From: an uncultured Bacteroidales bacterium | GTDB taxonomy: Bacteria > Bacteroidota > Bacteroidia > Bacteroidales > Bacteroidaceae | Reading direction: 5' to 3' | Length of the DNA stretch: 64,000 nucleotides | Assembly (NCBI GenBank): GCA_902799355.1 | Contig: CADCAG010000005.1 | Coordinates: forward strand, 1 to 64,000 | Part shown: positions 41,024 to 63,963 of the stretch, one piece after another | Numbering within the stretch: the stretch's first letter is position 1 | Layout of the letters: the number at the start of each line of letters is the position of its first letter | The notes under the pieces: model-generated | What the model was told of the DNA's origin: nothing | The model's input: the letters and a program-made list of their open reading frames with translations, nothing else | Database searches by the model: none | Program-made: the position numbers and the translations under genes

Positions 41024-44000
41024 ATGAAAAGATTGCTTACACTATTTGCATTCTTGGCATTGTTCTTGGGAGCAAATGCACAAGGTGGTAAGTGGGAAAA
41101 AGTCTATTCAATAGACTATTCCACTAACAGAGGTTTCCCATTCTACGTAATGGGGTATGTACCTGAGTGGGTAGGCGGTGTTATGACCGATTACGGTTCA
41201 GCCTACAGATACGCAACTCAGGAAAATCTTGACACTTACGATTTCAATGACAGCGGATGGAGAGATGGAGAGTATTCTGTTGGTACTACTACAACTGAAA
41301 GTGGGATAGAGTATCAGAAGGTAACAGGTGCTGGCCCATATTGGCACCAGTATTTCATCGCTGATGGTATTCCCACCAAGCTTGACGGCAAGTACAAAGT
41401 GGTTGCTAAGGTTAAGGCTACCAACGCTGTTAGCATCAACGTCAACATGTTATGGAGTTGGAGCGAAGCTGCCGCTAGTGCTTCTGTAGCCATTCCTGGC
41501 GAAGCTGATTTCCAGGAAGTAGTATGGGAGTACAGCGGCATTAATGGCCAGTCTTGTAACCTCGTAGCACAGCCAGGAACTTGCACTGAGACCATCGAAT
41601 GGCAGAGCCTTGAGGTTTACGAGTGGCAGAGAGAAAGCCAGAAACCTATTGAGTGGCTTGAAAATCTCAACAATGGTGACGCTTCAAGAACATGGGAAGA
41701 CCTCGGTCTTGCTGATGTCAAATACGATGACATGGACAACTTCTTTAAAGTTTGTGCATGGGCAAAGGAGAAGGGACGCAACTTAGACGGTAACGACGCA
41801 TGGCAGCCATTCCCTGCTGACATCGAAATAGTTGATGGCGATAGTGTATTCGTTGTTCATGGTCAGGCCGCTACCACTGAGGGGGATCCTTCTTCATGGG
41901 ATAACGAGTTCTGGATTCAATCGCCAAGAGCATGGAAGACTGGCTCACAATTAAAAATACACTTTCGTTATAGGGCTTCACAGAGTGTAAAAACAGGAAC
42001 TCAATTTCACAGAGCTCCAGCTAACTATCTATATTGGCAAGCTCTTGGCGACATAGATTTTAAGGAAGAGTGGCAAGAATTTGACAAAATTGTAAATATA
42101 AATGAATCAACGAATGGTGCCACTGCAATTGAATTCACTTTAAATACGAATGTTAAAGATGCTGTAGACTTCTATTTCGACGACCTCTCTTGGCAGAGCA
42201 TGAAACTGGACGAGGGATACTTCTTGGCTGGTATCAACACCAGCATTACTGACTCATACGATGACTTGAGCAATGCTATTGAGTTTATGAATGAAGATTG
42301 GGCGCTCGTTGCAACTATCGGCGAAAAGGGTAATCCCGACTCTTACGTTGACCAGTTGATGATTTCTACCGTTCGTGGTGACGACCAGGCCTTCAAGGGG
42401 GCTACACTGATGCCTCAAGGCAAGATTTACAACGATGCCGATGATTGGCTTTTCTATGTCGCTTCTGCAAATGCTAAGATTAACGTTCCAAACATTGGGG
42501 TTTGGAAGGTTTACCTTGACACAGAGTATACTTCTATGGCCTTTGAGATGCTCGAGGGTGTAGATAGACCGTCTTTTGATATCATTACTAACCCTACAGA
42601 GATAATTGTAAATGCTCTGGAGCGCGAAGACTTGATGGATACCTACTCTGATTCTGGTATAACTGTAAGAGAAGAAATGGATGATCCCGCTGGCGTAGAA
42701 GTAGGTGGCGAAGGTCATGAAGGCCAGCCTTGGGACAACCAGTTCTCCATCAAGGCTAATCGTGCTCTGAAAAAGGGTGAGATAACGAAACTCGTGTTCA
42801 AGTATAGAAGTTCTATTGATGCTAACACCACTACACAGTGCCATGGTGAGACTCCTGGTGCATACCTGCACTGGGCAGCCATCGGTGATGTTAACTTCAC
42901 GACTGACTGGCAGCTATTCGAGAAGGAATTCATTGTTCCAGATGCAGCTGATGGCATGTGGAATATCGTCTTCAACATGGCTGAAATCAAAGACGCTTGC
43001 GATTACTACATTAAGGATGTTCAATGGTATCTGTATGACGGCTATCTGGATGGAGGTCAGACATATGAGAACCTGATTAACGCAGGAGGTACAGCTAACT
43101 TCTACGTGAAGCTTGGTGCAGGAAATTCCCCCGTTCAATACGGTGGTGACGATACCAATATCGTATGGACGATTGCAGGTTCAAGTGAAAACATTTTCGG
43201 TACAGCTTGGGATCCCACCAACACCAGTAACGACATGCGACAGATTGAACCTGGAGTTTTCCTGCTGGAAAAGCAGAATGTCAGACTGGAAGCTGGTGAG
43301 GTCATTGAATATAAGGTTGTCGGCAACCACTCATGGGACATCAACTACGGTGAGAATGGCGAGCCTGATGGTTGGAACGTGACATTCTCTGTTGGTCAGA
43401 CAGACTTCTATGATTTATACTTCTATTTCTACAGAAACTCTGGCAACATACTGTCATGCACTTACCAATATGCATCGTCAGGTATCGAGCCTAACCCAAC
43501 GGAAGTTATTGTTTACGCAATGGAGAGAGACGACCTTTCTGACAATGACACGGATGGTATCAGAGAAGAAGAAGGTGGTACTGGCGAAGTATGGGACAAC
43601 CAGTTCTGGATTGTTGCTAATCGCAACCTTGCTGCAGGCGAGACAACAGTTCTCGAGTTCGATTATATGAGCTCTGACTATGCTTCGACAAGAACAGAGT
43701 TCCACGAAGGACCTTCTGAGTATCTCCACTGGGATGCTCTCGGTGAGATTTACTTCACCCCATATTGGCAGCACTACCGCACAGTATTCACTGTTCCTTC
43801 TGAGGCTGACAACATGAAGTCTATCGCATTTGACATGGCTGTTGTCAAGGAAGCTCGCGATTATCACATCCGAAACGTGGTATGGAGAGTTTCTAATAGT
43901 CAGGAATCTCTGATTAACCAGGAGGGTTCTGAGAACTTCTATGTAAGAATTGGTGCTAATACCGAACCTTACATGTACAATGGTGACTCTCAGGAGAATT

Positions 44001-46381
44001 TGTTCGCACTGTTGACTGCCCAGATTCAGACATCTAATGCTGCTTTGGAGAAATTGAACTATGCCAACGTTCCTGGAGCAGCTGATCTGAGAACACTCAT
44101 TGAAGCGGCTCAGGCCATAACGATTGAGAGTGATGTCGAGACCATCAAGAACAGCTTTACCCAGCTGAGGAGTCTGACCTTGTCTGTGGTCAACATGGAT
44201 ACGCAGTACAAGGCTCTGGAAGACCTGATGGTACGTATAGAGACTGTCATTCAGAACAATCCTGATGCAGACGCCACCCTCGCAGCAGAAGCTATCAACA
44301 AGATGATTGAAGTTCGTGCTGCACTGAACAGTGGTGCGTATAACCAGGAGGAACTCTGGAGAATGACAAGCATCATGAACGATTACTACTATGCTTTGTC
44401 AAAGGTTTATCTGACTATCAACGTCACAACGCCAGGCACGCTCAGAGCACTGATTAACGAGAAGGGCTTCGATGCGTCAAGCATTGTAGGACTGACCGTT
44501 AGCGGAACACTGGACTATGATGATATCAACTTCATCCAGAATATGTATGAGTTAGAGATGCTCAACATAAAGGAAACCAATATCACTGAGATTTGGGGCT
44601 GGATGTTCAATGGTCGCAACCTGAACAAAGTCGTACTGCCCAAGAACCTGCAGAAACTTGGCGAATATGCTTTCGCATGGAATTCTAATCTGACGGAAGT
44701 AGAGCTGCCTGGAGCACTGCAAGAAATCAGTTACTATGTATTCGAAGGCTGCGAGAATCTGAAGAATATTACCTATAATACTATTATGCCGGTATCACTG
44801 TATGACTATCTCATGAGTGAATACTACTCACAGAATTGTACATTGTATGTTCCTGCAGTAGCCGTAAGCTTCTTCCAGTCGAACTACTACTGGAGCAAGT
44901 TCCGCATTGTCGGTACGGACATGATGCCTGAGGATATCTTCATTGCACGCAACATTACACTGGATTGGCCAGAGGGCCTTGGCACAAGCGTTAAGCCTAA
45001 TGTAACAATTGGATACTCAGAGTACAATGGTACTATCGGTAGTCTGACGCTGAATGGCAACAGCACTGTTTCGATGAGCAACTTCAACATGCTCTGGAGC
45101 CCACGCCGCAGCAGCTGGTCGGTTACATACAATGACCAGACAGGCACTTATGAGTGGTACCGTTATCAGTATAGTTCACTGGTAGCTAATGCTCCGATGC
45201 GCGCAGACAATGTTTCTGTATCACTGGAGACCAATACCTATCGTTGGGACTTCCTGACCTTCCCATTCGATGTCAAGGTTAGCGACATTATCAATCAGCA
45301 GCAGACCAATGCTCCGCTGGTAATCCGCCGCTACGACGGTAAGAACCGTGCCGACGGTAAGATGGGTGAGACATGGGTTGACATGACTCCCGACATGACA
45401 CTGGAGGCTGGCAAGGGCTATATCTGGCAGAGCGCAGAGGGCGACCAGGGAAATAGTGAAAACAACTTCACTGTTACTGCATTGGACAATGCAAAGAAGA
45501 ACAACCTCTTCACTACTGGCGACGTGACAGTAGAGCTCGACGAGTTCATCAGCGAGTTCAGCCAGAACCGCAGCTGGAACCTCATCGGTAACCCATATCC
45601 TGCATTCTATGACATCCGTGGCATGCAAACCACTGCGCCTATCACTATCTGGAATGGATATAACAATGTTTATCAGGCATACGTACCTGGTGAGGATGAC
45701 TACATTCTGAACCCAGGACAGGCATTCTTCATCCAGCGTCCACTTGATCAGGAGACACTCACCTTCATCAAGGAGGGTCGTCAGGCCGATTTGGGCATCA
45801 GGAATTGGGACACCAACTCAACACGTGCTGCTGAAAACAAGGAGCACTACGTCTTCAACCTGATTCTCAGCGGTAGTGAGGATGTTCAGGGTGACCGCAC
45901 ACGTATTGTCTTTGACGCTACTGCTAAGGCTGACTATGAGGCTGGTCGTGATGCTTCGAAGTTCATGAGTCCTGAGGCTACTGCAGCACAGATATTCACT
46001 ACCAATGGTGATGTACGTTACGCTATCAACGAGCGTCCTGCTATGGATGGCATCGTAGAGCTGGGGCTGAGCATCGGCACAGCAGGTAGCTACACAATAG
46101 CTCTGAATACCAAGGTGGAGAACGAGGTTTACCTCATCGACCGTCTCACAGGTATGGAGACAAGCATTGATGGTGGTAGCACCTATACCTTCCAGGCTAC
46201 CAAGGGTATCATCGAGGGTCGCTTCGCAGTACGCTTCGGCAATGGTGAGGTAACAGGTATCAAGGCTATTGCCACCGACGGCAAGAATAGTGATAACTGG
46301 TACAACCTGAAGGGTCAGCGTGTTAACGCTCCGACGAAGGGTCTCTACATCCAGAACGGCAAGAAGACCGTTGTGAAGTAA
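41024..46381 (+). CDS. Giant secreted multi-module surface protein, with jelly-roll modules, LRR and T9SS-like tail
   Basis: The 1785-residue protein has a signal peptide (MKRLLTLFAFLALFLGANAQ). Residues up to 205 form a first carbohydrate-binding-like jelly roll. A related module recurs about every 280 residues, recognisable by WDNxFxI near 292, 570 and 856 and by YLHWxALGDI/YLYWQALGDI about 45 residues later, each ending in DYxIxDVxW-type strands. Between modules lie domains like those of starch-binding proteins (NHSWDINYGENGEPDGWNV). A helical part follows at about 1005-1140, then BspA-type leucine-rich repeats at about 1160-1300 (LEMLNIKETNITEI, LTEVELPGALQEI), a beta-rich part, and a short tail WYNLKGQRVNAPTKGLYIQN plus GKK that fits a T9SS sorting end. 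It should be surface-bound and may bind glycan or host proteins. It is the first gene of a four-gene operon. Confidence 0.85.
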   Translation: MKRLLTLFAFLALFLGANAQGGKWEKVYSIDYSTNRGFPFYVMGYVPEWVGGVMTDYGSAYRYATQENLDTYDFNDSGWRDGEYSVGTTTTESGIEYQKVTGAGPYWHQYFIADGIPTKLDGKYKVVAKVKATNAVSINVNMLWSWSEAAASASVAIPGEADFQEVVWEYSGINGQSCNLVAQPGTCTETIEWQSLEVYEWQRESQKPIEWLENLNNGDASRTWEDLGLADVKYDDMDNFFKVCAWAKEKGRNLDGNDAWQPFPADIEIVDGDSVFVVHGQAATTEGDPSSWDNEFWIQSPRAWKTGSQLKIHFRYRASQSVKTGTQFHRAPANYLYWQALGDIDFKEEWQEFDKIVNINESTNGATAIEFTLNTNVKDAVDFYFDDLSWQSMKLDEGYFLAGINTSITDSYDDLSNAIEFMNEDWALVATIGEKGNPDSYVDQLMISTVRGDDQAFKGATLMPQGKIYNDADDWLFYVASANAKINVPNIGVWKVYLDTEYTSMAFEMLEGVDRPSFDIITNPTEIIVNALEREDLMDTYSDSGITVREEMDDPAGVEVGGEGHEGQPWDNQFSIKANRALKKGEITKLVFKYRSSIDANTTTQCHGETPGAYLHWAAIGDVNFTTDWQLFEKEFIVPDAADGMWNIVFNMAEIKDACDYYIKDVQWYLYDGYLDGGQTYENLINAGGTANFYVKLGAGNSPVQYGGDDTNIVWTIAGSSENIFGTAWDPTNTSNDMRQIEPGVFLLEKQNVRLEAGEVIEYKVVGNHSWDINYGENGEPDGWNVTFSVGQTDFYDLYFYFYRNSGNILSCTYQYASSGIEPNPTEVIVYAMERDDLSDNDTDGIREEEGGTGEVWDNQFWIVANRNLAAGETTVLEFDYMSSDYASTRTEFHEGPSEYLHWDALGEIYFTPYWQHYRTVFTVPSEADNMKSIAFDMAVVKEARDYHIRNVVWRVSNSQESLINQEGSENFYVRIGANTEPYMYNGDSQENLFALLTAQIQTSNAALEKLNYANVPGAADLRTLIEAAQAITIESDVETIKNSFTQLRSLTLSVVNMDTQYKALEDLMVRIETVIQNNPDADATLAAEAINKMIEVRAALNSGAYNQEELWRMTSIMNDYYYALSKVYLTINVTTPGTLRALINEKGFDASSIVGLTVSGTLDYDDINFIQNMYELEMLNIKETNITEIWGWMFNGRNLNKVVLPKNLQKLGEYAFAWNSNLTEVELPGALQEISYYVFEGCENLKNITYNTIMPVSLYDYLMSEYYSQNCTLYVPAVAVSFFQSNYYWSKFRIVGTDMMPEDIFIARNITLDWPEGLGTSVKPNVTIGYSEYNGTIGSLTLNGNSTVSMSNFNMLWSPRRSSWSVTYNDQTGTYEWYRYQYSSLVANAPMRADNVSVSLETNTYRWDFLTFPFDVKVSDIINQQQTNAPLVIRRYDGKNRADGKMGETWVDMTPDMTLEAGKGYIWQSAEGDQGNSENNFTVTALDNAKKNNLFTTGDVTVELDEFISEFSQNRSWNLIGNPYPAFYDIRGMQTTAPITIWNGYNNVYQAYVPGEDDYILNPGQAFFIQRPLDQETLTFIKEGRQADLGIRNWDTNSTRAAENKEHYVFNLILSGSEDVQGDRTRIVFDATAKADYEAGRDASKFMSPEATAAQIFTTNGDVRYAINERPAMDGIVELGLSIGTAGSYTIALNTKVENEVYLIDRLTGMETSIDGGSTYTFQATKGIIEGRFAVRFGNGEVTGIKAIATDGKNSDNWYNLKGQRVNAPTKGLYIQNGKKTVVK

Positions 46382-46420
46382 GTAGTAATTAATAGTGAAT
46401 AACGTCAAAATACAGAAGTT

Positions 46421-49400
46421 ATGAACAGACTATTAAGCCTATTCGCCATCTGTCTCTTCCATCTTGGGCTTTTTGCCCAGGATGGCAAAGAGGCGGAGTT
46501 CTACACGTCAGGATACTACGTGCAGGGCGGCGAGACACATATAGCTGGAGAAACGAAGGACATCATAGGCTACATGCTTGACGAAAGTGGTGAACTGACA
46601 CAACAAACTGTGGCCACACTGACGTTTGGTGTCGAAGGTGGTAGCGACTTTACAGAAGCCACCTGGGACTATTCCATTAACGATTTCAGTGCCTACCTTC
46701 GTGGCAATGGTGAAAATGGTAGCAGTGAGGGCGGTACCGTATACGCCATCCAGGCTAATACCAATGGTTATGTAACTGTAGGTGTTGTACTCAACGCCAA
46801 CAAGCCATTCTATATCTTAGAAGATGGTCAGGCACTTGCTGACTTCAACGGTCTGACCGTAGCACAGCAATACCGTGGCACGTATACCTTCCCTGTCAAG
46901 ACAGGTAGCACCTATAAGATTTATGCTGAAGGTTCGAAGCTGGGATTCTATGGTTTCACCCTCCTCTACTCGACAGATGCATCGTATGTCTTCGAAGCTC
47001 ATAACATGACCGTCAGCACGAATGTAAAGAGAAATGTCTATACGAGCTATTCAGGCACCTCTTTGCAGGTAACGGGTAATAAGATATGGCTTTATGCCTA
47101 TAGCTACTCCGGCTATCGTTTCAAGCACTGGCTGGCAAACGGTGGTATTGTTTCAACAGAACAGGAGTTCTACTACACTATGCCCGCTCATGATGTGGAT
47201 ATTGTTGCTGTCTTTGAGTTTAATCCCTCTAACCCTGGAGATCCTGCTTCAGCAGAGAATAGCTATAAGCTGACCTTGCAGAGTCAACCTGCTAATGCCG
47301 GCCATTTCAACTTGCCGAAGATTAGCAAGATTGGCGCAGGTACCACCACGACGGTTTATGCATACAGCAATCGTGATGGCTTTGTATTCCAAGAGTGGCA
47401 GATTGATGGCAACAGGATTTCTACACAGCCTGAGCTGGAATTCACCATGCCAGAGAAGAACATCACATTGACGGCAGTCTATAAGTTCAATCCCACCAAC
47501 CCAGGTAACCCAGGTACTAACCGCTTTGATGCAGAGTCTGGTGAACTCGTCCTCGACGACTTCACTCCAGGCAATGCATATAATGCCGCATGGAATGCCG
47601 TTGGTGGCAACATGGACAAGGTCAAGAGTATCACCATCATCGGTGAGGTAAGCACATGGGATGCTGCCGACGTTGCCAACAACTGCGCTAATTGCACGGT
47701 ACTCGACGTGAGTCGCACGACAGGCATGTACTACATCAATAGTTATGCATTCTCCAACAATACGAAACTGACGACCATCAGTTTGCCGGCAACAGTCATG
47801 TATATATACTACTATGCATTTGCTGGTTGTACTTCGTTGACTACACTGAACATTCATGCGGTTACTCCGCCAACGCTTGATTCGTATGTCTTTGGCTATG
47901 GCGAGCAGAACGTAGCAGGTAATGTCACCGTGTTTGTTCCGGCTTCGTCATTGTCACTCTATCAGCAGTCTGATGCATGGCAGGTTGTCCAAGCTATATT
48001 GCCATTCACCTCAGAAGTTTGCGATCTGGAGGTGAACTTCCCGCAAGGAACCGACATCGCTGCCTATAAGGATATGTATCTGGAGGCTTACAACACGATG
48101 AGTGGTCAGCGCCTACGCTATGTCATCACCAATCAGACGGTATATACCTTCAGTAACATCATCAAGAACACGAAGTGGACGGTATGTCTGAAGAACACCA
48201 ATGGCGATGTGCTGGGAGAAATCCGCGACATCGAGGTGAAGGATAAGAATGTGAGTGTGACATTTGAGAGCCTGAAGGCCCTGTTAGACGTATCACTAGC
48301 TGTTACCACTCCTGGTGGTACCGACGTCACCCCAGAAGTGACCATTACATGGGCAGATAAGAATGGCAACTTCCTGACACAGGGAGCTACCATTAAGAAT
48401 CTGTTGGAAGGCAATGTCGTGAAATACACTGTCGCACTTCCAGAGAATCTGGCTATGCAGTATAAGCTGCCGGAAGCCGGTGAACACACCGTTTCTGCTG
48501 CTACCTCAGGTAACCTGACAGTGGTACTGGAACCGCTTCCACAGCTGACCATTGCCGGTACTGTCACAGACTACAACAATGACAATGCTCCTCTGCAGGA
48601 TGCTGTCATTGCAGTCTCACAGACCATCAACGGACAGTACTCCAAGACCTTCGTCACCAAGACAGACGCAGAGGGTAAGTGGTCACTGACGGTGTTCAAC
48701 GCACCTACAGAGATTACCGCCTCTAAGGTGGGTTACATTGAGCAGACTCAGGAACTGGAGGTACTCAGTGAAACCATTGATCCATTTGCTTTGAAGGACA
48801 TCAATGGTACCACCATCAACCTCTCATTGCGCTATAAGCCTATTGAGGGTGAGGAGACTGACTACGCTGATGAGGCTAACGTAGCCTATACCATCGTTAA
48901 CGAGACCACGGGAGAGGCACTGACAGACATGAGTGTCCAATACCCGAAGATCGTTATGATGGAGAAGTACCCAGAGGGCACCAAGTTCGCCATCACGGCA
49001 TCCAGCAAGAACCAGAAGTTCTTACCAGTGAAGGTTACTGCTGAGGTGAACGACAAGGATGCTGCCAATGCAACCTTCGTCATCAAGCAACTGGGTGGCA
49101 TCAAGGCTTCCTACAATGAGAGCGACAACACTGCTTGCGTAGGAATCCTCTACGATGAAAACGGACAGCTGGTAAAGCGTTACGACTATGTAGACAGCCA
49201 TCTGGTCATCAATGAGGTTCCTGATGGTACTTATACATTGGTAACCATGGGCAGCAGCCTGTTCTTCAACAGCGTAGGTTTGTTGTCACAGCTTGCTGAG
49301 AGCGGCCTGCGCAATGGTGTAGACTATGTACGCCAGACCGCCACCGTAACCAGTGGAGCTTACCAGACCATCTTCTTCGCACGCGTACCTTTCTTTGATG

Positions 49401-52400
49401 AGACGAAGCTGTACTACACTGCTAGCAGCACTTCATTCACAGCCAACAAGAGTCAGGTAACTGCAGGTCAATACCTCACATTGCGTGGACAGGTTGACTT
49501 CAAGGATGCCTATGCTGGACAGGTCAGCAATGTCAACCTGATTGTCGACATGACTCCTGACTGTGAGTTCGTTGCCAACTCTGTCATGCTCGGCAAGAAC
49601 CTCACCGGTTATACGCTCAATGGCAACCAGCTCATCGTGCCCCTCGGCAATTCGACAGAGCAGGTGCGCTTCTGTGTCATCCCGACGAATGAAGGAATGT
49701 ATGAGCCCAGTGCCAGCGTCAGCTTTACCTACAACGGTAAGAATGTGCTGCAGCCTATCGGTTCTGCACAGACCACCGTCAAGGGTGTCACTATTACTGT
49801 ACCCGTCACCACTGCTAATCCACAGTTTACCGCCTCCGGTACTGCTACTGCCAAGTCTGATGTCTATGTCTATGCAGACAACATGCTGGTTGGTAAGACG
49901 GTTGCAAAGGCTAACGGTAAGTGGAGTGCCCAGTGTGAGTTGGGTGAAGTAGCTGATCAGAGCGAGCATCCTGTCTTTGCACGCATCGCTACTCCTCAGA
50001 ATGCAGGAATACTCACTGATACCAAGATGGTGACATTCGACAAGAATGCCATTCTGGCTCAGAAGGTAGGCATGTCGTTCTTCAACGGATGGATGCATCA
50101 GACGCAGAATGTAGAGTGGAACATGATAGAGAAGAAGGTGAACCAGTCGTCATACATGTTCTATAACACGACAGACTTTACATTCACCATCTCCTTTACC
50201 TTCAACAATCCTGAGACTGTGAAGGACGTACAGCTGATTGTCTACAAGAATGACAACACGTACGACATTCTGAATGCCTCTTTCAACAGTAAGAAGAATA
50301 TCTGGGTGGCCAGCCACAGTTACACGTCATGGGCACTGCCTACGACAGTAAAGGTGAAGTATGTCATCAATGGTGTTCAGATGACGATGAGCGAAGACAG
50401 CGATGATGAGGGCAATGAGCATACCAACCCCATCCTCGACCCGTCAGGATTCGTCTATGAGGCTGTCTCTTCAAACCGTCTACAGGGCGTTACCGTCAGC
50501 ATCTACTATAAGGAAGAGGTAGAGGACGAGTATGGTGATACACACGAGAACGTGGTACTGTGGAATGCTGAGGATTATGCCCAGCAGAACCCGCTGTTCA
50601 CGGATGAGAATGGTATGTACCAGTGGGATGTGCCCAACGGATTGTGGCAGGTGCGCCTTGAGAAGGAAGGCTACCTGAAGACCAATTCTGAGTGGCTGCC
50701 CGTTCCTCCTCCACAGCTGGATGTCAATCTGCCTATGACACAGATGAAGCAGCCTACCATCATCAATGCAAAGGCCTTTGCAACTGGTGTAGCATTTGAG
50801 TTCGATAAATATATGACTCCTGCCACCTTGACTGCTGAGAACATCATCGTTACCAAGAATGGTACGCCCATAGATGGTACGATTAAGTTGCAGAACGAGG
50901 AGGCCGCTTACGAGGGTGCTGCAGAGCGCTATGCTTCTAAGGTGCTCTTTGAGGTGGGCAAGGATGATGAGCTGACTCCTAGCGACGAGATACGTCTCAC
51001 CGTCAACAAGGCTGTCGAGAGCTATGCAGGTGTCCAGATGCAGGACAACTACACACAGACCTTCGTCGTTGAGCCTATCGTACGCAGCATTCGCGTCGAC
51101 GCCGACCTTGACCTCGTTAACATCGGCTACGGCGAGACTCGTACACTGACGATTGCCGCTCTGCCTACTGAAGCAGCAAAGGGTAAGACTATCAATGTGG
51201 AGTCGCTGTCAACACTCGTGGCAACAGTAAATGCTGAGCAGCTGCAACTCGACGAGAATGGACAGGCAGAGCTGGTTGTCAGCGGTGAACTGCCCGGTTC
51301 TACCGTCATCGGCTTCACCATGGCAGACTCTGACGTAGAAGGTCAGCTGGCCGTCAACGTCAAGGATGCTAAGGATCTGAAGACCATTGAGCCGAGAGCC
51401 TCTCGCGTATCTGGTTCTAAGTTGTATCGCGGTGCCAAGATCCTGTTGACCAGCGAGACGGAGAATGCCGTCATCAAGTACACGCTGGATGGTAGCAGCC
51501 CCGCAGGCGATGGTGACAACGTTCTGACCTACAATGCTAATGAGCCTATCGTTATCACTGAGGACAACGTAACCATCAAGGCTATCGCCCTAGGTAAGGA
51601 TCTGGAGCCCAGCCAGGAGGTTTCATTCTCTTATGAGCTGAAGAAGTCGACTATCAATTACCAGATGGCTACAGGCTGGACATGGATTTCTCACAACATG
51701 GAGTCTGCTGTCGCTACTGCCGACCTGGCATCGAACGTGGTACGTGTTGTTAGCCAGACCAGTGAGGTCGTTAACGATCCGCAGTATGGACTGGTAGGTT
51801 CACTGACCGAATTGCAGCCTGCCGTAGGCTACAAGGTACAGGTTAGCCAGCCTACAGAGAAGACCATGCAGGGCTTCGAGATGAATGCCAACGAGAATAC
51901 CGTAAGGGTAGAGTCTGGCTGGAACTGGATTGGTTATCCTCTCAATATTCAGATGACTATCGGTGAGGCACTGGCTTACTTCGATGCCACAGCAGGTGAC
52001 ATGATTGTCGGTCAGGATGGTACCGCCACCTACGACGGCACACAGTGGCAGGGTACGCTGGAAGGCATGAAGCCTGGCCAGGGATACCTGTTCAAGACTG
52101 CTACCACCACCGATATCCAGTTCAATACGAATACTGCATCGGATGCTGTCAACCAGATTGGTCAGCACAACTGGCTCATTGGCAGCCCATGGACATTCGA
52201 CAAGCATGCTTACCCGAATGTCATGCCTGTTACCGCTGAGTTCTATGTAGACGGTACTAAGACTACTGACGACGAATACGTCATCGCAGCCTTTGTCGGT
52301 AGCGAGTGTCGTGGTGTCGGTCAGTGGAAGGAAGGCCGTGTACTCATGAACGTATTTGGCGACGGAAGCGAGGATGTGACCTTCATGGCATACGACAAGA

Positions 52401-52753
52401 CCAGCGAGCAGTACTATACGGTTACTGAGCACGTGACCTTCGTGGCTGACAATAGCGGTAGCTGGTTCGCACCGATGAAGCTCACGCTGGGCAACGAAGC
52501 TACTGGTATGAAGCAGCTCAACAGCGACCTGTTACTGAAGGTGGCTGGCAACTACATCACAGTCAATGCTGGCGGTAAATATATCAACCGTCTGACAGTG
52601 ACCAATATGGGTGGTGTTGCCGTGCTGACCGTCAATGACCTGGGCACTGGAGCTACGATTACTACCGGTTCTCTGGCCGAGGGTATGTATATTGTTACCA
52701 TTCAGGCTGAGGGTAAGACCTACTACGAGAAAATACTGAAGGCTAACAAGTAA
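46421..52753 (+). CDS. Giant secreted protein with InlB-like, LRR and chitobiase-C-like modules
   Basis: The 2110-residue protein starts with a signal peptide (MNRLLSLFAICLFHLGLFAQ). Two divergent InlB-type repeats lie at about 195-270 and 280-352 (SGYRFKHWLANGGIV, DGFVFQEWQIDG). A BspA-type leucine-rich block follows at about 407-527 (INSYAFSNNTKLTTISLPAT), then a carboxypeptidase-regulatory-like module at about 707-793, a long beta-rich middle, and a chitobiase-C-like module at about 1660-1740 (YTLDGSSPAGDGDN). A module with VIAAFVGSECRGVG lies near 1953, which recurs at the N-terminus of the next gene product. The end (GMYIVTIQAEGKTYYEKIL) resembles a T9SS type A tail. The many folds suggest a long stalk or adhesin. 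It lies 39 bp after the first gene of the operon. Confidence 0.85.
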   Translation: MNRLLSLFAICLFHLGLFAQDGKEAEFYTSGYYVQGGETHIAGETKDIIGYMLDESGELTQQTVATLTFGVEGGSDFTEATWDYSINDFSAYLRGNGENGSSEGGTVYAIQANTNGYVTVGVVLNANKPFYILEDGQALADFNGLTVAQQYRGTYTFPVKTGSTYKIYAEGSKLGFYGFTLLYSTDASYVFEAHNMTVSTNVKRNVYTSYSGTSLQVTGNKIWLYAYSYSGYRFKHWLANGGIVSTEQEFYYTMPAHDVDIVAVFEFNPSNPGDPASAENSYKLTLQSQPANAGHFNLPKISKIGAGTTTTVYAYSNRDGFVFQEWQIDGNRISTQPELEFTMPEKNITLTAVYKFNPTNPGNPGTNRFDAESGELVLDDFTPGNAYNAAWNAVGGNMDKVKSITIIGEVSTWDAADVANNCANCTVLDVSRTTGMYYINSYAFSNNTKLTTISLPATVMYIYYYAFAGCTSLTTLNIHAVTPPTLDSYVFGYGEQNVAGNVTVFVPASSLSLYQQSDAWQVVQAILPFTSEVCDLEVNFPQGTDIAAYKDMYLEAYNTMSGQRLRYVITNQTVYTFSNIIKNTKWTVCLKNTNGDVLGEIRDIEVKDKNVSVTFESLKALLDVSLAVTTPGGTDVTPEVTITWADKNGNFLTQGATIKNLLEGNVVKYTVALPENLAMQYKLPEAGEHTVSAATSGNLTVVLEPLPQLTIAGTVTDYNNDNAPLQDAVIAVSQTINGQYSKTFVTKTDAEGKWSLTVFNAPTEITASKVGYIEQTQELEVLSETIDPFALKDINGTTINLSLRYKPIEGEETDYADEANVAYTIVNETTGEALTDMSVQYPKIVMMEKYPEGTKFAITASSKNQKFLPVKVTAEVNDKDAANATFVIKQLGGIKASYNESDNTACVGILYDENGQLVKRYDYVDSHLVINEVPDGTYTLVTMGSSLFFNSVGLLSQLAESGLRNGVDYVRQTATVTSGAYQTIFFARVPFFDETKLYYTASSTSFTANKSQVTAGQYLTLRGQVDFKDAYAGQVSNVNLIVDMTPDCEFVANSVMLGKNLTGYTLNGNQLIVPLGNSTEQVRFCVIPTNEGMYEPSASVSFTYNGKNVLQPIGSAQTTVKGVTITVPVTTANPQFTASGTATAKSDVYVYADNMLVGKTVAKANGKWSAQCELGEVADQSEHPVFARIATPQNAGILTDTKMVTFDKNAILAQKVGMSFFNGWMHQTQNVEWNMIEKKVNQSSYMFYNTTDFTFTISFTFNNPETVKDVQLIVYKNDNTYDILNASFNSKKNIWVASHSYTSWALPTTVKVKYVINGVQMTMSEDSDDEGNEHTNPILDPSGFVYEAVSSNRLQGVTVSIYYKEEVEDEYGDTHENVVLWNAEDYAQQNPLFTDENGMYQWDVPNGLWQVRLEKEGYLKTNSEWLPVPPPQLDVNLPMTQMKQPTIINAKAFATGVAFEFDKYMTPATLTAENIIVTKNGTPIDGTIKLQNEEAAYEGAAERYASKVLFEVGKDDELTPSDEIRLTVNKAVESYAGVQMQDNYTQTFVVEPIVRSIRVDADLDLVNIGYGETRTLTIAALPTEAAKGKTINVESLSTLVATVNAEQLQLDENGQAELVVSGELPGSTVIGFTMADSDVEGQLAVNVKDAKDLKTIEPRASRVSGSKLYRGAKILLTSETENAVIKYTLDGSSPAGDGDNVLTYNANEPIVITEDNVTIKAIALGKDLEPSQEVSFSYELKKSTINYQMATGWTWISHNMESAVATADLASNVVRVVSQTSEVVNDPQYGLVGSLTELQPAVGYKVQVSQPTEKTMQGFEMNANENTVRVESGWNWIGYPLNIQMTIGEALAYFDATAGDMIVGQDGTATYDGTQWQGTLEGMKPGQGYLFKTATTTDIQFNTNTASDAVNQIGQHNWLIGSPWTFDKHAYPNVMPVTAEFYVDGTKTTDDEYVIAAFVGSECRGVGQWKEGRVLMNVFGDGSEDVTFMAYDKTSEQYYTVTEHVTFVADNSGSWFAPMKLTLGNEATGMKQLNSDLLLKVAGNYITVNAGGKYINRLTVTNMGGVAVLTVNDLGTGATITTGSLAEGMYIVTIQAEGKTYYEKILKANK

Positions 52754-52767
52754 ACTGTAGAAATACT

Positions 52768-54273
52768 ATGAAAACAAAACATGTAAGATATTTGTTCAGC
52801 GTTGTGCTGGCACTGTGGGCTTCGGCCCTCAGTGCCCAGTCACACTGGACATGTGACATCAACGCATATCAATATGATATGACGGTGTATTATGATTTGC
52901 AGACGAACGGCACAGCTATTGCCGACTGGGGCAACTTCGAGGTTGCAGCATTTGTCGGTGATGAGTGTCGCGGCGTAGGCGAGACCATGGCGGCTATTGT
53001 CAACGAAGCAACCGTACATTATGGTTATCTGCGTGTGCGTAGCAATGCGTCAGCAGGCGGTGAAACGGTATCTTTCAAGGTCTATGTCAAGAACGCCAAC
53101 AAAGAGGTTGCCATAGGGAGTGATGCCAACATCACGTTTACACCCAACGGAGCTGAGGGTCTTCCCTCCTCACCGAAGGTGTTCAACATCAGTGTGTATC
53201 AACTGTCATTCCCCGCTACTATCGTAGGCGGTACTGTCTATGGAGCTGGTTCGTATTATGTAGGGTCACAAGCTACGGCAAGAGCGGTAGCTGACAACTA
53301 CTACACCTTTACGAAGTGGATTGACGATGCAGGAGTAGCCATAATGGACAATCCGTATACGGTTACCATGACGAAAGACCTGACACTGTCACCTGTCTTC
53401 ACGCCAGTATCATTCACTATTAGCTACGACTTAAAGGGCGGTGCACTGGCTGACGGTATCACCAATCCCACAAACTACACCATCGAGAGTGAGGACTTTA
53501 CGCTGAACAATCCCACGAAGTACGGATATGACTTCCTGGGATGGACAGGTACCGATCTCACAGCTCCCACCCTGCAAGTGACGGTGGTAAAGGGCAGCTA
53601 TGACAACCGCAGTTACACAGCACAGTGGCAGCCTATAGCCTACCCCATCACCTATGACCTTGCCGGTGGTACGGTGGAACTGGACAATCCTGAGAATTAC
53701 ACCATCGAGAGTGAGACCTTCACGTTGACCAATCCGACACGTAAGGGATACACCTTCGCAGGATGGACAGGAACAGGTATTGACGGTAAGGCTATGACGG
53801 TGACGATTGCCAAGGGTAGCTCAGGCGCTCTCGCTTATACGGCAACATGGACGCCTATCACTTACACCATCACCTACGATCTGGATGGTGGTATGTGGAG
53901 AGAAGGTTATGCAACGAACCCCACAAGCTATACCATAGAGACCGAAGCCATCTACCTGGTTAACCCAAGGAAGAGCGGTTTCTCTTTCGCCGGTTGGACG
54001 GGTACGGGGCTCACCGAACCTACCTTCATGGTTTCTATTCCCAAGGGCAGCACGGGCGACTACTCCTTCAAGGCAACGTGGTCTGACCAGCTGTTGATGG
54101 GCGATGTCAATGGTGACGGTATCATCTCTGCCGTCGACGCGAACTTGTGTGTCGAGTATCTGCTGAATGGCAGTGCTCCCGACTTCAATGCTGATGCTGC
54201 TGATATGGACAAGAACGGTTCAGTTACAGAGGCTGATGTTACTGCAATTATTAACAAAATCTTAAATCCTTAA
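52768..54273 (+). CDS. Secreted InlB-repeat protein with a C-terminal dockerin
   Basis: The 501-residue protein has a signal peptide (MKTKHVRYLFSVVLALWASALSA), then a module with FEVAAFVGDECRGVG that is shared with the end of the preceding giant. A divergent InlB-like repeat lies at about 150-212, followed by three InlB-like B repeats at about 213-440 (YDLAGGTVELDNPENYTIESE, PTRKGYTFAGWTGTG, YTATW). The last 60 residues are a type I dockerin with two canonical calcium loops: DVNGDGIISAVD, with ligands at positions 1, 3, 5, 9 and 12, and DMDKNGSVTEAD. There is no T9SS-like tail, unlike the other three proteins of the operon. The dockerin may attach it to a cohesin partner; the next gene starts with a cohesin-like domain. 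The start is 14 bp after the previous stop. Confidence 0.88.
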   Translation: MKTKHVRYLFSVVLALWASALSAQSHWTCDINAYQYDMTVYYDLQTNGTAIADWGNFEVAAFVGDECRGVGETMAAIVNEATVHYGYLRVRSNASAGGETVSFKVYVKNANKEVAIGSDANITFTPNGAEGLPSSPKVFNISVYQLSFPATIVGGTVYGAGSYYVGSQATARAVADNYYTFTKWIDDAGVAIMDNPYTVTMTKDLTLSPVFTPVSFTISYDLKGGALADGITNPTNYTIESEDFTLNNPTKYGYDFLGWTGTDLTAPTLQVTVVKGSYDNRSYTAQWQPIAYPITYDLAGGTVELDNPENYTIESETFTLTNPTRKGYTFAGWTGTGIDGKAMTVTIAKGSSGALAYTATWTPITYTITYDLDGGMWREGYATNPTSYTIETEAIYLVNPRKSGFSFAGWTGTGLTEPTFMVSIPKGSTGDYSFKATWSDQLLMGDVNGDGIISAVDANLCVEYLLNGSAPDFNADAADMDKNGSVTEADVTAIINKILNP

Positions 54274-54277
54274 TTCC

Positions 54278-56149
54278 ATGAAGAAGAATTTGATACTATT
54301 CTTAACCTTATTCTTGGGGTTAAAGACAATGGCTGCTGTGGAACCGACAGTTTCACTTTCAGACCTGAAGATGAAGCCTGGCACAGAGGCCACAGTTTCT
54401 ATGGAACTGCAGAATGCCGACTATGCCATCACCTCTTTGCAGGGCGACTTCGTCCTGCCAGAAGGTGTTACAGTATCGGATGTCACACTGGTTAGCAGCC
54501 GTTTTAAGACGAATAATTCTGTAGTGTCACATGTCGTCAATGCTAACGCACAACGTTTCGTAGTTACAGCCAACAAGGAATATGGTGCTATAGCATCGGT
54601 CGATGGTACATCAGGCGCTGTCATCTCTTTCAAGGTGAAGGTTGCTGAGAATGTAGCGTATGGCAAGTACTCCATAGGCATTGCCAATGTAGAACTGGGC
54701 GATGCACAGTTCAAGTCGCATTATGCAGGATGTACAGCCACACTGTCGGTATATGACGAGTTTACCGTGACTGCCAAGGCTGCCGATGCGCAAATGGGTA
54801 CCGTCACTGGTTCAGGCACCTTCGAATATGGCGAGGAGGCGACCGTCACGGCTACTGCCAATGAGGGTTATCACTTCGTGAGTTGGTCTGCTAACGGCGT
54901 TATCGTATCAGTGTCTGACACCTATACGTTTACTGTTGGTGAAAACATCACGCTGACGGCTACGTTCGCTCCAAACATGTACACCCTGACTTTCGTACTG
55001 AACAACGGTGAAGAGAATGTGGTCAAGACGCAGAACTACGGTACTGAGCTAAAGGCTCCGGAGAATCTGAAGAAGACAGGTTACAGTTTCAGTGGATGGA
55101 GTCCTGAGGTTCCTGCGACAGTTCCTGCTGGAAACATGACGTACACTGCTCAGTGGACGATCAATCAGTACAGCATGACCTTCGTGCTGAACAATGGTGA
55201 AGAGAACATCGTCATCAAGCAGGACTACGCTACTGAGCTTGTCGCTCCTATTCCCACCAAGGAAGGCCATACGTTCGCAGGATGGGACAAAGCAGTTCCG
55301 GCCACCATTCCTGCTGAGGACATGACGTTCAATGCCACATGGTCTGTCAAGCAGTACACCATGACCTTCAAATTGAACAATGGTAAGCCTAACGTTGTAA
55401 AGACCCTGGACTTCGGTTCTGAGCTGAAGGCTCCTGAGAATGTGGAGAAGACAGGATATGTCCTCACCGGTTGGGATCCAGAGCTGCCAGCAACAGTTCC
55501 AAGTGGCGACATGATCTTTGAGGCTGTTTGGGCACCGGAAGTGTACGCCATCACCTATAACCTTGCTGGCGGTCAACTGGCAGAGGGTGACACCAACCCA
55601 GACACGTACACCATTGAGAGTGACGCTATCACGCTGAAGAACCCGACACGTGAGGGCTACACCTTCGCTGGTTGGACGGGTACAGGTATTGAGGGCTCCT
55701 CTATGGAGGTGACCATCGCCAAGGGTAGCATGGGAGCCCGTACGTACACTGCTACGTGGACACCTATCACCTACACTATCAGCTATGAATTAGCCGGTGG
55801 TCAGTTGGCACAGGGCGAGTCGAACCCTGGCACGTATACCATCGAGAGTGACGCTATCACGCTGAAGAACCCGACACGTGAGGGTCACGACTTCATAGGT
55901 TGGACGGGTACTGGCCTTACTGAGGCGACCATGACAGTGACTATCGCCAAGGGAAGCATCGGCAACCGCACGTACACGGCCACATGGAAAGAGGCCACAG
56001 GCATCCAGCACATCTTCAGCGACAGTAAGACCGTCAATGTCTATACCGTCTCTGGTGCATTAGTAGGTCGCGACATGACTGCTGACGAGGTGCTCCAGCT
56101 CAAGCGTGGCATCTATGTCATCAATGGCAGAAAGATTACTGTCAGATAA
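54278..56149 (+). CDS. Secreted protein with N-terminal cohesin-like domain, InlB repeats and T9SS-like tail
   Basis: The 623-residue protein has a signal peptide (MKKNLILFLTLFLGLKTMAA), followed at about 20-155 by a nine-strand-like domain with the cohesin pattern: LKMKPGTEATVSMELQNADY, GDFVLPEGVTVSDV, SGAVISFKVKVAENVAYGKY, IGIANVELGD. Then come a divergent InlB repeat (about 160-225), three short B repeats of about 62-66 residues (FVLNNGEENVVKTQNYGTEL, GYSFSGWSPEVPATVPAG), and two long B repeats of 76 residues that are nearly identical over 41 bp. The end (VNVYTVSGALVGRDM, KRGIYVINGRKITVR) resembles a T9SS sorting tail, so it should be anchored outside the cell. It lies 4 bp after the dockerin gene. 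The cohesin reading is inference from fold pattern, not proven. Confidence 0.8.
   Translation: MKKNLILFLTLFLGLKTMAAVEPTVSLSDLKMKPGTEATVSMELQNADYAITSLQGDFVLPEGVTVSDVTLVSSRFKTNNSVVSHVVNANAQRFVVTANKEYGAIASVDGTSGAVISFKVKVAENVAYGKYSIGIANVELGDAQFKSHYAGCTATLSVYDEFTVTAKAADAQMGTVTGSGTFEYGEEATVTATANEGYHFVSWSANGVIVSVSDTYTFTVGENITLTATFAPNMYTLTFVLNNGEENVVKTQNYGTELKAPENLKKTGYSFSGWSPEVPATVPAGNMTYTAQWTINQYSMTFVLNNGEENIVIKQDYATELVAPIPTKEGHTFAGWDKAVPATIPAEDMTFNATWSVKQYTMTFKLNNGKPNVVKTLDFGSELKAPENVEKTGYVLTGWDPELPATVPSGDMIFEAVWAPEVYAITYNLAGGQLAEGDTNPDTYTIESDAITLKNPTREGYTFAGWTGTGIEGSSMEVTIAKGSMGARTYTATWTPITYTISYELAGGQLAQGESNPGTYTIESDAITLKNPTREGHDFIGWTGTGLTEATMTVTIAKGSIGNRTYTATWKEATGIQHIFSDSKTVNVYTVSGALVGRDMTADEVLQLKRGIYVINGRKITVR
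55616..55884. repeat. Perfect 41-bp direct repeat in two B-repeat modules
   Basis: The same 41 bases occur at 55616-55656 and 55844-55884, 228 bp (76 codons) apart. This shows a recent in-frame module duplication and a site for copy-number change. Confidence 0.85.
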
Positions 56150-56174
56150 AACACTATCATTAACCTATTCCAAG

Positions 56175-56213
56175 CAGGTGCATTACAGATAAATGTAGTG
56201 TACCTGTTTTTTA
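56175..56213 (+). terminator. Intrinsic terminator of the surface-protein operon
   Basis: CAGGT...CATTACA pairs with TGTAGTG...ACCTG around a GATAAA loop, followed by six Ts (56207-56212). It separates the four surface genes from the fimbrial locus. Confidence 0.8.
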
Positions 56214-56372: not shown

Positions 56373-57641
56373 ATGTATAAAGCAGTAATACATATAATAA
56401 AAGTAGCATCCATTACCTTACTGTTGGTGTGCCACGTGTTAGCTGTCAGAGGCCAACAACCATTCCACATGACAATAGGTAACAACTTGCTATACGACGC
56501 TACGCTGACGCCCAATCTCCGTATCGGCATTAGGCTCGCAGAGCACTGGTCGGCAGGACTTACCGCAGGGTACCGGCCTTGGCCTACCGATGACGAGACC
56601 AATACCAAGTGGCGGCATCTGCTGCTTTCTCCCGACATCCGGTACTGGTTCAAGGGGGTGAACACGGGACATTTCATCGGGGGCAACCTCATATACGCCC
56701 ACTACAACATAGCTAATGTAGATCCCATCATCTACAATGCAGCTAAAGATATTCGACGTCAGGGAGACCTTGGCGCCGTTGGTGCTTTTTATGGATACTC
56801 GTGGCCATTGGGGCGTTATTGGAACATCGAGGCACAGATAGGAGCCGCTGTGGCTTACACCAAATATTCGGCTTATGCCTGCGGACATTGCGGTAAGAAA
56901 CTGAAGGACGACAGCAAGGTGCTGTTGATGCCTCAGGCCGCCCTGTCGGTGGTTTACAACATACCTGGTCGTCCACGCAAGACCAAAGAGGAGCCACAGA
57001 TTATCATCGAGGAACCGATAGCAGAGCCACAGATAGAGCTGCCAGTAAGACCTGCTCCTGAACCTGTTTTCGAGGAGCCCGTTGTGGTTGAACAGAAGTC
57101 GGAGCCTGTCATTGCCAAAACAAAAGTCAGAGACACCCTGTATGTCCACTTCCCCTGGAGCAAGAGTGTGCTTAGCGAAGACTTCCGTGAGAACCGCGAG
57201 ACCCTGCAGCGCATCATCGATGCCACCCGCGAGTCGGCAAGCAATGGCAACATGACCATCAAGAAGATACAGATTGTGGGTTTGGCATCTGTAGAGGGTA
57301 ACACAGCATATAACGAGCGCTTGGCCCATAACCGTGCCCTGGCTCTGAAGAAATATGTGCAGCAGCACGTAGACCTACCTGACGAGAAGTTCGAGATTGT
57401 CGGTGGCGGCGAAGCATGGGAGTGGTTCCGCAAGCAACTGGTGGAGAATGTCGACCAGCGTCCCGACCTGAAGCGCGCTATCGAAATCATCGACACTGCC
57501 CCCAATGTCAACAACCGCAAGTGGCGCCTGCACGTCATGAACCACGGACAGACATGGGAGTACATCCGCCGTCACATCCTGAAGAATCAGCGTAACTCTG
57601 GCTACATCATCGTCTACTACGAAGACGACGAAAAGCAGTAA
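56373..57641 (+). CDS. DUF3575/OmpA-like outer-membrane protein of a fimbrial locus
   Basis: The 422-residue protein has a signal peptide and an N-terminal beta-barrel-like part of about 200 residues (MTIGNNLLYDATLTPNLRIGI, HLLLSPDIRYWFKG, FIGGNLIYAHYN), as in DUF3575 proteins of Bacteroidales fimbrial operons. A Pro/Glu-rich linker follows (about 205-245), then an OmpA-type C-terminal domain (IQIVGLASVEGNTAYNERLAH, RALALKKYVQQH) that may bind peptidoglycan. It is the first gene of the fimbrial unit, 56 bp before the first fimbrillin. In Porphyromonas and Bacteroides such proteins accompany FimA/Mfa1 loci, but their exact role is unclear. Confidence 0.83.
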   Translation: MYKAVIHIIKVASITLLLVCHVLAVRGQQPFHMTIGNNLLYDATLTPNLRIGIRLAEHWSAGLTAGYRPWPTDDETNTKWRHLLLSPDIRYWFKGVNTGHFIGGNLIYAHYNIANVDPIIYNAAKDIRRQGDLGAVGAFYGYSWPLGRYWNIEAQIGAAVAYTKYSAYACGHCGKKLKDDSKVLLMPQAALSVVYNIPGRPRKTKEEPQIIIEEPIAEPQIELPVRPAPEPVFEEPVVVEQKSEPVIAKTKVRDTLYVHFPWSKSVLSEDFRENRETLQRIIDATRESASNGNMTIKKIQIVGLASVEGNTAYNERLAHNRALALKKYVQQHVDLPDEKFEIVGGGEAWEWFRKQLVENVDQRPDLKRAIEIIDTAPNVNNRKWRLHVMNHGQTWEYIRRHILKNQRNSGYIIVYYEDDEKQ

Positions 57642-62802: not shown

Positions 62803-63963
62803 ATGACGAAGAATAGACATATATACCTCCTCCAATGGCTCTTGTGCAGCATTCTGACAGTGCTGTGCGCTGCCTGCTCTTCTGGTGATGAAGGAGAGGA
62901 AGTTTCACACAAGCAGGTGAAACTGGCTATCTATGTCTATGCTCCTGAGCAAGCGGCAGCTAAAAAGAATGCCGCACCAACTCGTGCTAACGTGGGTGAG
63001 GTGGATGACATCACCACTGAAGGTACCATCAAGAGCCTGCAGATATGGATTTACGAGTCAGAGTCGGGCAATTACGTCGGTTATTTCAATACCGAAGATG
63101 TGGTAGCACTGAATAATGGGCAAGGTACTACCTACCAGTTACCAGTATCTGACGAATTTGCTGCCGCCAAGCCCAATGTTAACGTCTATGTCTTGGCAAA
63201 TGTGACCACCGCCAACTGCGGTGTAGGGACATTGGACAAGGAGACGACGCGTACAGACCTGCTGGACGGTGCCAAGATAGCGAATGGATACTTTGGTTTG
63301 GAGCAAAATACAAGAAGCATACCGCCCGCTGGTCTGCCGTTTGCAGGTAAGTTGACCGCACAGCCCGTTGTTGGCGATGCCCCCACACTGCGTATAGGTA
63401 CGCTCAGTGCGGTTTCCACCGTTCAACTGACCCGTGCGGTGTCGAAGATGCGCTTCGTCTTTGCCAAGACGACAGGACAGCCAACGGTGAACATTACCAG
63501 CATCAAGATGAATGCCGCTATGATACCCGATGAGGAGTATCTTTTCAAAACTCCTGTTTCTATGTCCTATAATACTGAGGAGAAAGAGCTGCTGTCAACA
63601 GCTATTATTGATATCGCTGAGACTGCTGACCCCACCCAATATCTCTATCTGGGTCAAGAGGCACAGGAATATGAAGACCTGATTAATGAAGCAGCAAGTA
63701 AAACGACACCTGAGGTCACCGTAGAAGGCCCTGTCTATCTACGAGAGAGCGACAAGAAACTGGCAGGTACCATCACATACACCATTGATGGTGGAGCGGA
63801 ACAAACTGTTGACTTCGCCATGCAGCAGGCTGGCGACTTCAGCCGCAACCACACCTGGATTGTCTATGCATACTATGCCGGTGCTGGCAAGCTACAGGTG
63901 GAGTCACTATATGTTAAAGACTGGTCAACGAAAGAAGTCAATCACAACTTCTATAATTGGTGA
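62803..63963 (+). CDS. Minor fimbrial subunit (fimbrillin-like lipoprotein)
   Basis: The 386-residue lipoprotein has the signal LCSILTVLCAAC (Cys near residue 25) and a fimbrillin-type body: VKLAIYVYAPEQ, SLQIWIYESESGNYVGYF, NVYVLANVTTANCG, GLPFAGKLTAQPV, VQLTRAVSKMRFVFAK, and the closing VKDWSTKEVNHNFYNW. The LTRAVAK-like strand and the final YNW are typical of FimC-E/Mfa3-5 accessory subunits of Bacteroidales. It starts 8 bp after the paralog and is followed by another start, so the locus goes on beyond the window. Confidence 0.8.
   Translation: MTKNRHIYLLQWLLCSILTVLCAACSSGDEGEEVSHKQVKLAIYVYAPEQAAAKKNAAPTRANVGEVDDITTEGTIKSLQIWIYESESGNYVGYFNTEDVVALNNGQGTTYQLPVSDEFAAAKPNVNVYVLANVTTANCGVGTLDKETTRTDLLDGAKIANGYFGLEQNTRSIPPAGLPFAGKLTAQPVVGDAPTLRIGTLSAVSTVQLTRAVSKMRFVFAKTTGQPTVNITSIKMNAAMIPDEEYLFKTPVSMSYNTEEKELLSTAIIDIAETADPTQYLYLGQEAQEYEDLINEAASKTTPEVTVEGPVYLRESDKKLAGTITYTIDGGAEQTVDFAMQQAGDFSRNHTWIVYAYYAGAGKLQVESLYVKDWSTKEVNHNFYNW

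Follow-up and report, generated by a model that had tools for sequence, protein, structure and literature searches.

A dockerin gene followed by a cohesin gene with a type IX-like tail: a candidate surface docking pair in a Bacteroidales bacterium

Introduction

Cellulosomes of clostridia and ruminococci use dockerin and cohesin modules (PMC12484212, PMC6118326), and modules of the same families are the subject of this study. A close precedent is the system of Archaeoglobus fulgidus, in which ORF2375 and ORF2376 are reported to form a noncellulosomal dockerin-cohesin pair with strong and specific binding (PMC9705933); the two genes are adjacent and supply a C-terminal dockerin and an N-terminal cohesin. 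Here we describe the same gene layout in P3 and P4, two neighbouring genes in a 64,000-nucleotide stretch from an uncultured gut bacterium of the Bacteroidales, a relative of Prevotella (positions 1 to 64,000 of contig CADCAG010000005.1; hereafter the window). P3 ends in a dockerin, and P4 begins with a cohesin domain and ends with a tail resembling those of type IX secretion system (T9SS) cargo. We consider it likely that they form a local cohesin-dockerin pair, in which P4, exported by the T9SS and anchored at the surface, would hold P3 by calcium-dependent binding.

The locus differs from that of A. fulgidus, an archaeon with a single pair (PMC9705933), in that here the operon layout recurs, the cohesin partner carries an export tail and chains of such genes occur. 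In Ca. Stygibacter (Cloacimonadota), a cellulosome-like complex is reported to be built on one scaffoldin of 3,755 amino acids with repeated cohesins and carbohydrate-binding modules (CBMs; PMC8542988), whereas P4 has a single cohesin and is encoded beside its presumed cargo; unlike clostridial and ruminococcal cellulosomes, too, the P3-P4 locus holds no CBM-bearing multi-cohesin scaffoldin. In the rumen, dockerin-bearing proteins are reported from metagenome-assembled genomes (MAGs) of Prevotella and other Bacteroidetes (PMC7480376, PMC6071333), with the role of dockerins in polysaccharide utilization loci termed not yet defined (PMC7480376). Cohesins have been found in certain Bacteroidetes, and two Bacteroidetes bins of the camel rumen, 49 and 58, have 11 dockerins and no cohesins each (PMC6071333); the portions of these two reports available to us do not link dockerins and cohesins as neighbouring pairs.

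An initial annotation, made from the DNA sequence alone, had proposed that P4 is anchored and holds P3 through cohesin-dockerin binding, and had taken such a pair on InlB-repeat surface proteins of Bacteroidales to be undescribed. As to novelty, the literature searched, which mostly did not extend to subscription journals, gave us no report of T9SS-tailed local cohesin-dockerin pairs from Bacteroidales; the gene layout as such has an archaeal precedent. The layout appears, from sequence comparison, to be a real and well-supported variant of noncellulosomal cohesin-dockerin docking, one tied to type IX surface anchoring and with a close precedent in an archaeon.

Results

Computational analysis placed P3 (501 amino acids) and P4 (623) at the end of a cluster of four plus-strand genes (41024-56149 of the window), downstream of P1 (1785) and P2 (2110), with intergenic gaps of 39 bp (P1-P2), 14 bp (P2-P3) and 4 bp (stop codon of P3 to ATG of P4). 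Residues 445-499 of P3 match the Pfam Dockerin_1 model (PF00404) with an E value of 7.7e-12 (45.7 bits, cut-off 22.9), and on direct reading its two calcium loops, DVNGDGIISAVD and DMDKNGSVTEAD, each carry acidic or amide side chains at positions 1, 3, 5 and 12 and are both intact. By this match and these loops, residues 442-501 constitute a type I dockerin, with the xylanase Y dockerin (2ccl_B, E 2e-7) as its closest solved relative. The two-loop dockerin with its calcium ligands had been named in the initial annotation, with exact coordinates and motifs.

The N-terminal domain of P4 (residues 20-161) did not, on its own, retrieve a cohesin in a sequence search of the PDB. In tblastn, two other domains of this genome matched it (E 3.7e-4 and 4.5e-4); scanned singly, both exceed the Pfam Cohesin cut-off (28.6 and 27.0 bits compared with 24.1), and the P4 domain is thus related in sequence to known cohesins via intermediates; a profile of 28 cohesin domains, moreover, ranked solved cohesins first. 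The predicted structure of the domain has a cohesin fold, not the non-cohesin sandwich that would have spoken against the proposal, and all 50 Foldseek matches listed were cohesins or cohesin-containing scaffoldin fragments, including the A. fulgidus cohesin structure 2xdh.

P3 is the sole tail-less product of the four genes, since P1, P2 and P4 have T9SS-like tails and none was found in P3 by TIGR04183, PF18962, our tail hidden Markov model (HMM) or tail motifs. The tail of P2 scores above the TIGR04183 cut-off (27.2 compared with 23), that of P4 was recovered by a tail HMM trained without it (E 6.6e-12) and also carries the motifs, and the short tail of P1, which TIGR04183 does not match, was one of the four seeds of the HMM. 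Both the lack of a tail in P3 alone and the combination of a cohesin start with a T9SS-like tail in the gene 4 bp downstream were therefore as initially annotated. When the TIGR04183-type tails of this genome were scored with the short-tail HMM, one reached 45 bits (L160), another 8 bits (L158) and two were unmatched. In P. gingivalis, the sorting signal has been narrowed to the last 22 residues of a C-terminal domain (CTD; PMC5445135) and two CTD elements are reported to be essential (PMC11285876); our motif test is a simple one derived from the latter two elements. The genome encodes the T9SS sortase PorU (1007.8 bits; the T9SS search was limited to PorU), and P4 has the features of T9SS cargo, namely a signal-peptide-like start (by a simple rule) and a C-terminal tail (by HMM and motifs). 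Judging from their sequences, the short tails of P1 and P4 are likely T9SS tails.

We next surveyed 100 genomes of the genus, of which 63 have a dockerin (E <= 0.001) and 51 a cohesin-like domain. Among the 47 genomes whose best dockerin is strong (E < 1e-5), 45 have the latter, compared with 6 of the 53 others (Fisher p 2.6e-19, kinship between genomes ignored). Adjacency was counted in the 46 genomes with 1 to 8 dockerins, a panel selected on dockerin count only; genomes with more than eight were excluded, and a few stretches from three of them show many dockerins without a cohesin neighbour. The panel yielded 93 dockerin rows, 80 of them above the Pfam cut-off and 68 full-length (at least 130 bp). 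A cohesin-like domain lies within 1.5 kb on the same strand for 54 of these 68 and on the opposite strand for none, and chance adjacency, for which we roughly estimate about 0.2 cases, was rejected. Leaving out the present genome, the count is 51 of 65, and among the 12 short dockerins it is one.

Sixty-six dockerin genes could be classified from their fetched surroundings, 35 as dockerin-terminal and 31 as having an internal dockerin. Not one of the 35 dockerin-terminal genes has a T9SS-like tail. In 27 cases the next gene begins with a cohesin, and 26 of these partners are tailed, the 27th running off its contig. Among the other eight, one is followed by a tailed gene with a cohesin from residue 60, and in two cases a further dockerin gene, also without a tail, intervenes before a cohesin gene that has one. 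Internal-dockerin genes, by comparison, are mostly tailed themselves (25/31), and 24 of the 31 have a cohesin later in the same chain. From these class counts, the tail in this panel usually resides either in the dockerin's own chain or on the cohesin protein encoded directly downstream. The tail HMM, which found a tail in 23 of 423 background open reading frames (ORFs), was trained on many of the tails it later counted (P4's excluded), and the motif test served as a check: it was positive in 24 of the 26 partners that are complete, in none of the 35 dockerin-terminal genes, in 24 of the 31 with an internal dockerin and in 26 of 423 background ORFs. Signal-peptide-like starts were found by the simple rule in 29 of 34 dockerin-terminal proteins of at least 120 amino acids, in all 27 cohesin partners and in 93 of 301 background ORFs; both background sets contain mechanical ORFs that may not be genes, and so their rates are diluted. 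The dockerin-terminal proteins carry cargo domains that include LRR_5, CotH, peptidases M6 and C10, and Big_2. As a side observation, proteins of 694-1300 amino acids with an internal dockerin (L101, L112, L123 and L124; G014:C166, G029:C155, G042:C1 and G046:C27) end in a different C-terminal stretch, have neither a tail nor a cohesin match, and possibly represent a separate dockerin family.

The gene set itself was also found elsewhere, as had been suggested for checking the pair in related genomes. Homologues of P2, P3 and P4 occur in the same order in two genomes, G058 (L131) and G087 (L150), the former also having upstream a homologue of the C-terminal part of P1 (47% over 325 amino acids), and in a third (G034, L122) the set is partial: P2-like and P3-like genes are present, and the cohesin gene after them has no BLAST match to P4. 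Among the P3 homologues, identity is 35 to 40% for the N-terminal domain and 40 to 45% for the dockerin; for the two P4 homologues it is 30% and 35%, the latter copy being truncated at a contig end. In all three P3 homologues (204-216 amino acids) the N-terminal domain directly precedes the dockerin, and the InlB repeats of P3 are therefore not its conserved part. Nor is the arrangement confined to this locus. The N-terminal domain type of P3 is also found near the ends of P2 and its three homologues, followed by tail-like ends; in P3, a dockerin takes the place of the P2 tail.

Three dockerins above the Pfam cut-off and five cohesin-like domains were found in this genome, the latter in five separate frames, and all three dockerins adjoin cohesin-like domains. 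At C28 (L005), a tail-less GLUG-repeat protein of 1168 amino acids has a cohesin-dockerin end and is followed by a gene with a cohesin start and a tail; its Pfam Cohesin match was seen for the isolated domain only and is unlisted in the full-length scan. At C26 (L006:8603-14785), a 2060-amino-acid C10 peptidase with a Spi-type inhibitor domain continues into a dockerin, a cohesin-like domain and a tail, and also holds fn3, weak GLUG motifs and an InlB repeat. The next open frame (L006:6767-8567) begins with a cohesin; this gene is broken into two overlapping frames of 276 and 331 amino acids and is for that reason interrupted or misassembled. Our profile of these five domains (A1) includes one chosen by eye, that of L006 past the dockerin, and a profile built without it (A2) still recovers all five. 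A cellulosome was rejected for this genome, in which no multi-cohesin protein was found; P4 likewise has one cohesin and no CBM match.

Forty-three loci were obtained in a scan of named genomes, 42 of them labelled Prevotella, Prevotellaceae or Bacteroidaceae and many labelled with a ruminant host; they were selected by the presence of a cohesin and hence not used for counts. One locus (L165) has four successive genes, three encoding cohesin-dockerin and the fourth cohesin-tail, a layout that suggests chains held by one anchor. A survey of the order covered 247 genomes, counting the present one: a dockerin (E <= 1e-6) was found in 51 and a cohesin-profile match (E <= 1e-5) in 20, 17 of the latter being among the former, and the adjacent layout is not universal in the order.

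Several dockerin-rich or cohesin-rich genomes stand apart. One 3.0-Mb genome of the genus (G098, L206-L214) has 21 dockerins and four cohesin-like domains. It encodes tail-less proteins with similar dockerins and no cohesin in the fetched stretches, their cargo including GH26, GH53, CotH, LRR_5 and peptidase M6 among the 8 scanned of 27 listed dockerin proteins, and it also encodes small cohesin-dockerin proteins, a cellulosome-like layout within the genus. Three genomes (G049, G063 and G072) have at least 56 dockerins and 10 to 22 cohesin-like domains each. Possible multi-cohesin scaffoldins of Bacteroidales come from other families of the order, where open frames of 2467, 1239 and 1728 amino acids (G400:C25:211536-221549 and G445:C85:23410-27756) have 6, 5 and 8 listed cohesin-like domains.

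Discussion

These comparisons of sequence support the initially proposed interpretation, in which P4 is anchored and holds P3. By analogy with the families concerned, we infer that P4, consisting of a signal peptide, a cohesin, an InlB stalk and a T9SS-like tail, would be a type IX export substrate that becomes anchored on the outer face of the cell, and that its N-terminal cohesin would hold, in a calcium-dependent manner, the C-terminal dockerin of P3, which has a signal peptide, the 'ECRG' domain and InlB repeats and lacks an export tail. Cellulosome anchors differ from such anchoring by an outer-membrane secretion tail. P3 might then reach the surface by crossing the outer membrane in the P4-bound state, co-export with its tailed partner being our simplest guess; the literature searched offered no precedent for non-covalent co-export by the T9SS.

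That missing report is in keeping with another course of events, compatible with docking, in which the pair stays periplasmic, or P3 exits by another route and docks outside, and the cohesin of P4 is no aid to export. The lack of a tail in P3, along with the lack of a lipobox (simple pattern) in all 35 dockerin-terminal genes, would fit this course as well; it leaves unexplained, however, why a tail-less dockerin gene so often directly precedes a tailed cohesin gene (26/35), and we regard it as rather unlikely. The same lipobox count led us to reject lipoprotein anchoring of P3; one of the 27 cohesin partners has the pattern.

Returning to docking by P4, we asked how dockerins and their neighbouring cohesins vary together in 28 pairs. 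Alignment A3 comprised 33 dockerin-terminal proteins, two short members of the 35 being omitted, and A4 comprised 28 partners, namely the 27 above and the one with a cohesin from residue 60. Dockerin distances correlate with the distances between the neighbouring cohesins (Mantel r 0.48, p 0.0002) and not with the distances between the tails that these neighbours carry (r 0.05, p 0.26); cohesin and tail distances give r 0.15 (p 0.013). This result, together with the adjacency of all three dockerins of this genome to a cohesin-like domain and the mere 29% identity of the P3 dockerin to that of the C28 locus, argues against a shared surface network in which dockerin and cohesin are functional and P3 and P4 bind across loci, with no private pair. 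Such a network would be in line with the three dockerins and five cohesin-like domains of this genome, with the cohesin-free fetched stretches around dockerin genes and the small cohesin-dockerin proteins of G098, and with weak nearest-neighbour matching: in just 6 of the 28 pairs does the nearest dockerin have the nearest cohesin as its partner (mean rank 11.4 of 27). On the whole we find it improbable.

Near-symmetric recognition helices are a mark of dual-mode dockerins, though not of all dockerins. In the panel, recognition-helix identity is 0.56 between the repeats of one protein compared with 0.21 across proteins (permutation p 0.0002; 34 of 35 terminal dockerins were parsed, two of them badly), as expected if recognition is under selection. 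It is difficult to reconcile this likeness, the two intact calcium loops of P3 and the loss of the tail in company with a tailed cohesin neighbour with the notion that the dockerin only stabilises the end of the chain by binding calcium and that the two genes adjoin as a relic of a split gene, with no present binding. One-chain proteins in which a cohesin follows the dockerin are admittedly common among the internal-dockerin genes, and the P3 dockerin is asymmetric, but we judge a relic to be very improbable.

Several further observations weigh against a P3-P4 docking pair. The repeats of the P3 dockerin, with a recognition-helix identity of 0.07 compared with the mean of 0.56 for 34 dockerins, are so unlike that it is an outlier, and the nearest-neighbour matching is as weak as stated above. 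Inheritance of the locus as a unit among related genomes could give part of the Mantel result without any binding. The P4 domain has no Pfam Cohesin (PF00963) match of its own, and across 397 other genomes of the genus its best relative shares just 32% identity with it (E 1.4e-12). The P4 tail is matched by neither TIGR04183 nor PF18962, each of which matches one of the 28 partners. In the panel, a cohesin-like domain is missing from the 1.5 kb around 14 of the 68 dockerins and 5 of 35 dockerin-terminal genes have a cohesin gene neither adjoining nor past a second dockerin gene, and outside the genus 34 of 50 dockerin genomes have no cohesin-profile match (E <= 1e-5).

A wider proposal, which we put forward tentatively and as somewhat doubtful, is that the dockerin is an exchangeable stand-in for the T9SS sorting tail in Prevotella and relatives: tail-less cargo would bind the tailed cohesin carrier of the next gene before export, both would cross via the T9SS translocon, and the products of operons with multiple cohesin-dockerin genes ahead of one tailed cohesin gene would be exported or assembled as daisy chains with a single anchor. 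A reason suggests itself for dockerin-bearing MAGs without cohesins, in that the partner is usually next door in this genus, but the Pfam Cohesin model detects only 6 of 28 partner proteins (E <= 0.01). Dockerins of Bacteroidota would gain a testable partner, the question being testable with two short recombinant domains, and the layout suggests that a protein can be surface-located even if it lacks a T9SS tail, a possibility that would alter surface-proteome predictions.

Locus features and neighbouring genes

The coordinates of the cluster are given in Table 1. The 'ECRG' domain of P3 gave a confident all-beta model (predicted local distance difference test, pLDDT, 89.4), with no Pfam family above cut-off and no clear match in the PDB.

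Table 1. Features of the P1-P4 cluster in window coordinates.
Feature	Coordinates	Strand	Description
P1	41024..46381	+	First gene of the presumed operon; LRR_5 surface protein, short T9SS-like tail
P2	46421..52753	+	InlB/LRR_5/Fn3_assoc surface protein, 2110 amino acids
P2 domain homologous to the P3 N-terminal domain	52166-52528	+	
P2 T9SS type A tail	52547-52741	+	
P3	52768..54273	+	501 amino acids: signal-peptide-like start, N-terminal 'ECRG' domain, InlB repeats, C-terminal dockerin; tail-less
P3 N-terminal domain (residues 23-150, 128 amino acids)	52834..53217	+	All-beta model, no clear PDB match
P3 InlB B-repeats	53224..54081 (limits approximate)	+	Missing in three P3 homologues
P3 type I dockerin (residues 442-501)	54091..54270	+	
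P4	54278..56149	+	623 amino acids: signal-peptide-like start, N-terminal cohesin, InlB repeats, T9SS-like tail
P4 cohesin domain (residues 20-161)	54335..54760	+	
P4 InlB B-repeats	54773..55993 (limits approximate)	+	
P4 short basic T9SS-like C-terminal tail	55997..56146	+	VYTVSG...RGIYVINGRKITVR
Terminator-like hairpin	56172..56209	+	22 bp past P4

The hairpin past P4 is a possible end of the operon; terminator-like sites are no more frequent in this DNA than in shuffled sequence. Downstream of the operon, genes of the DUF3575/OmpA family and FimA-like genes lie at 56373-57641 and 62803-63963, and probably belong to a separate locus of fimbrial type.

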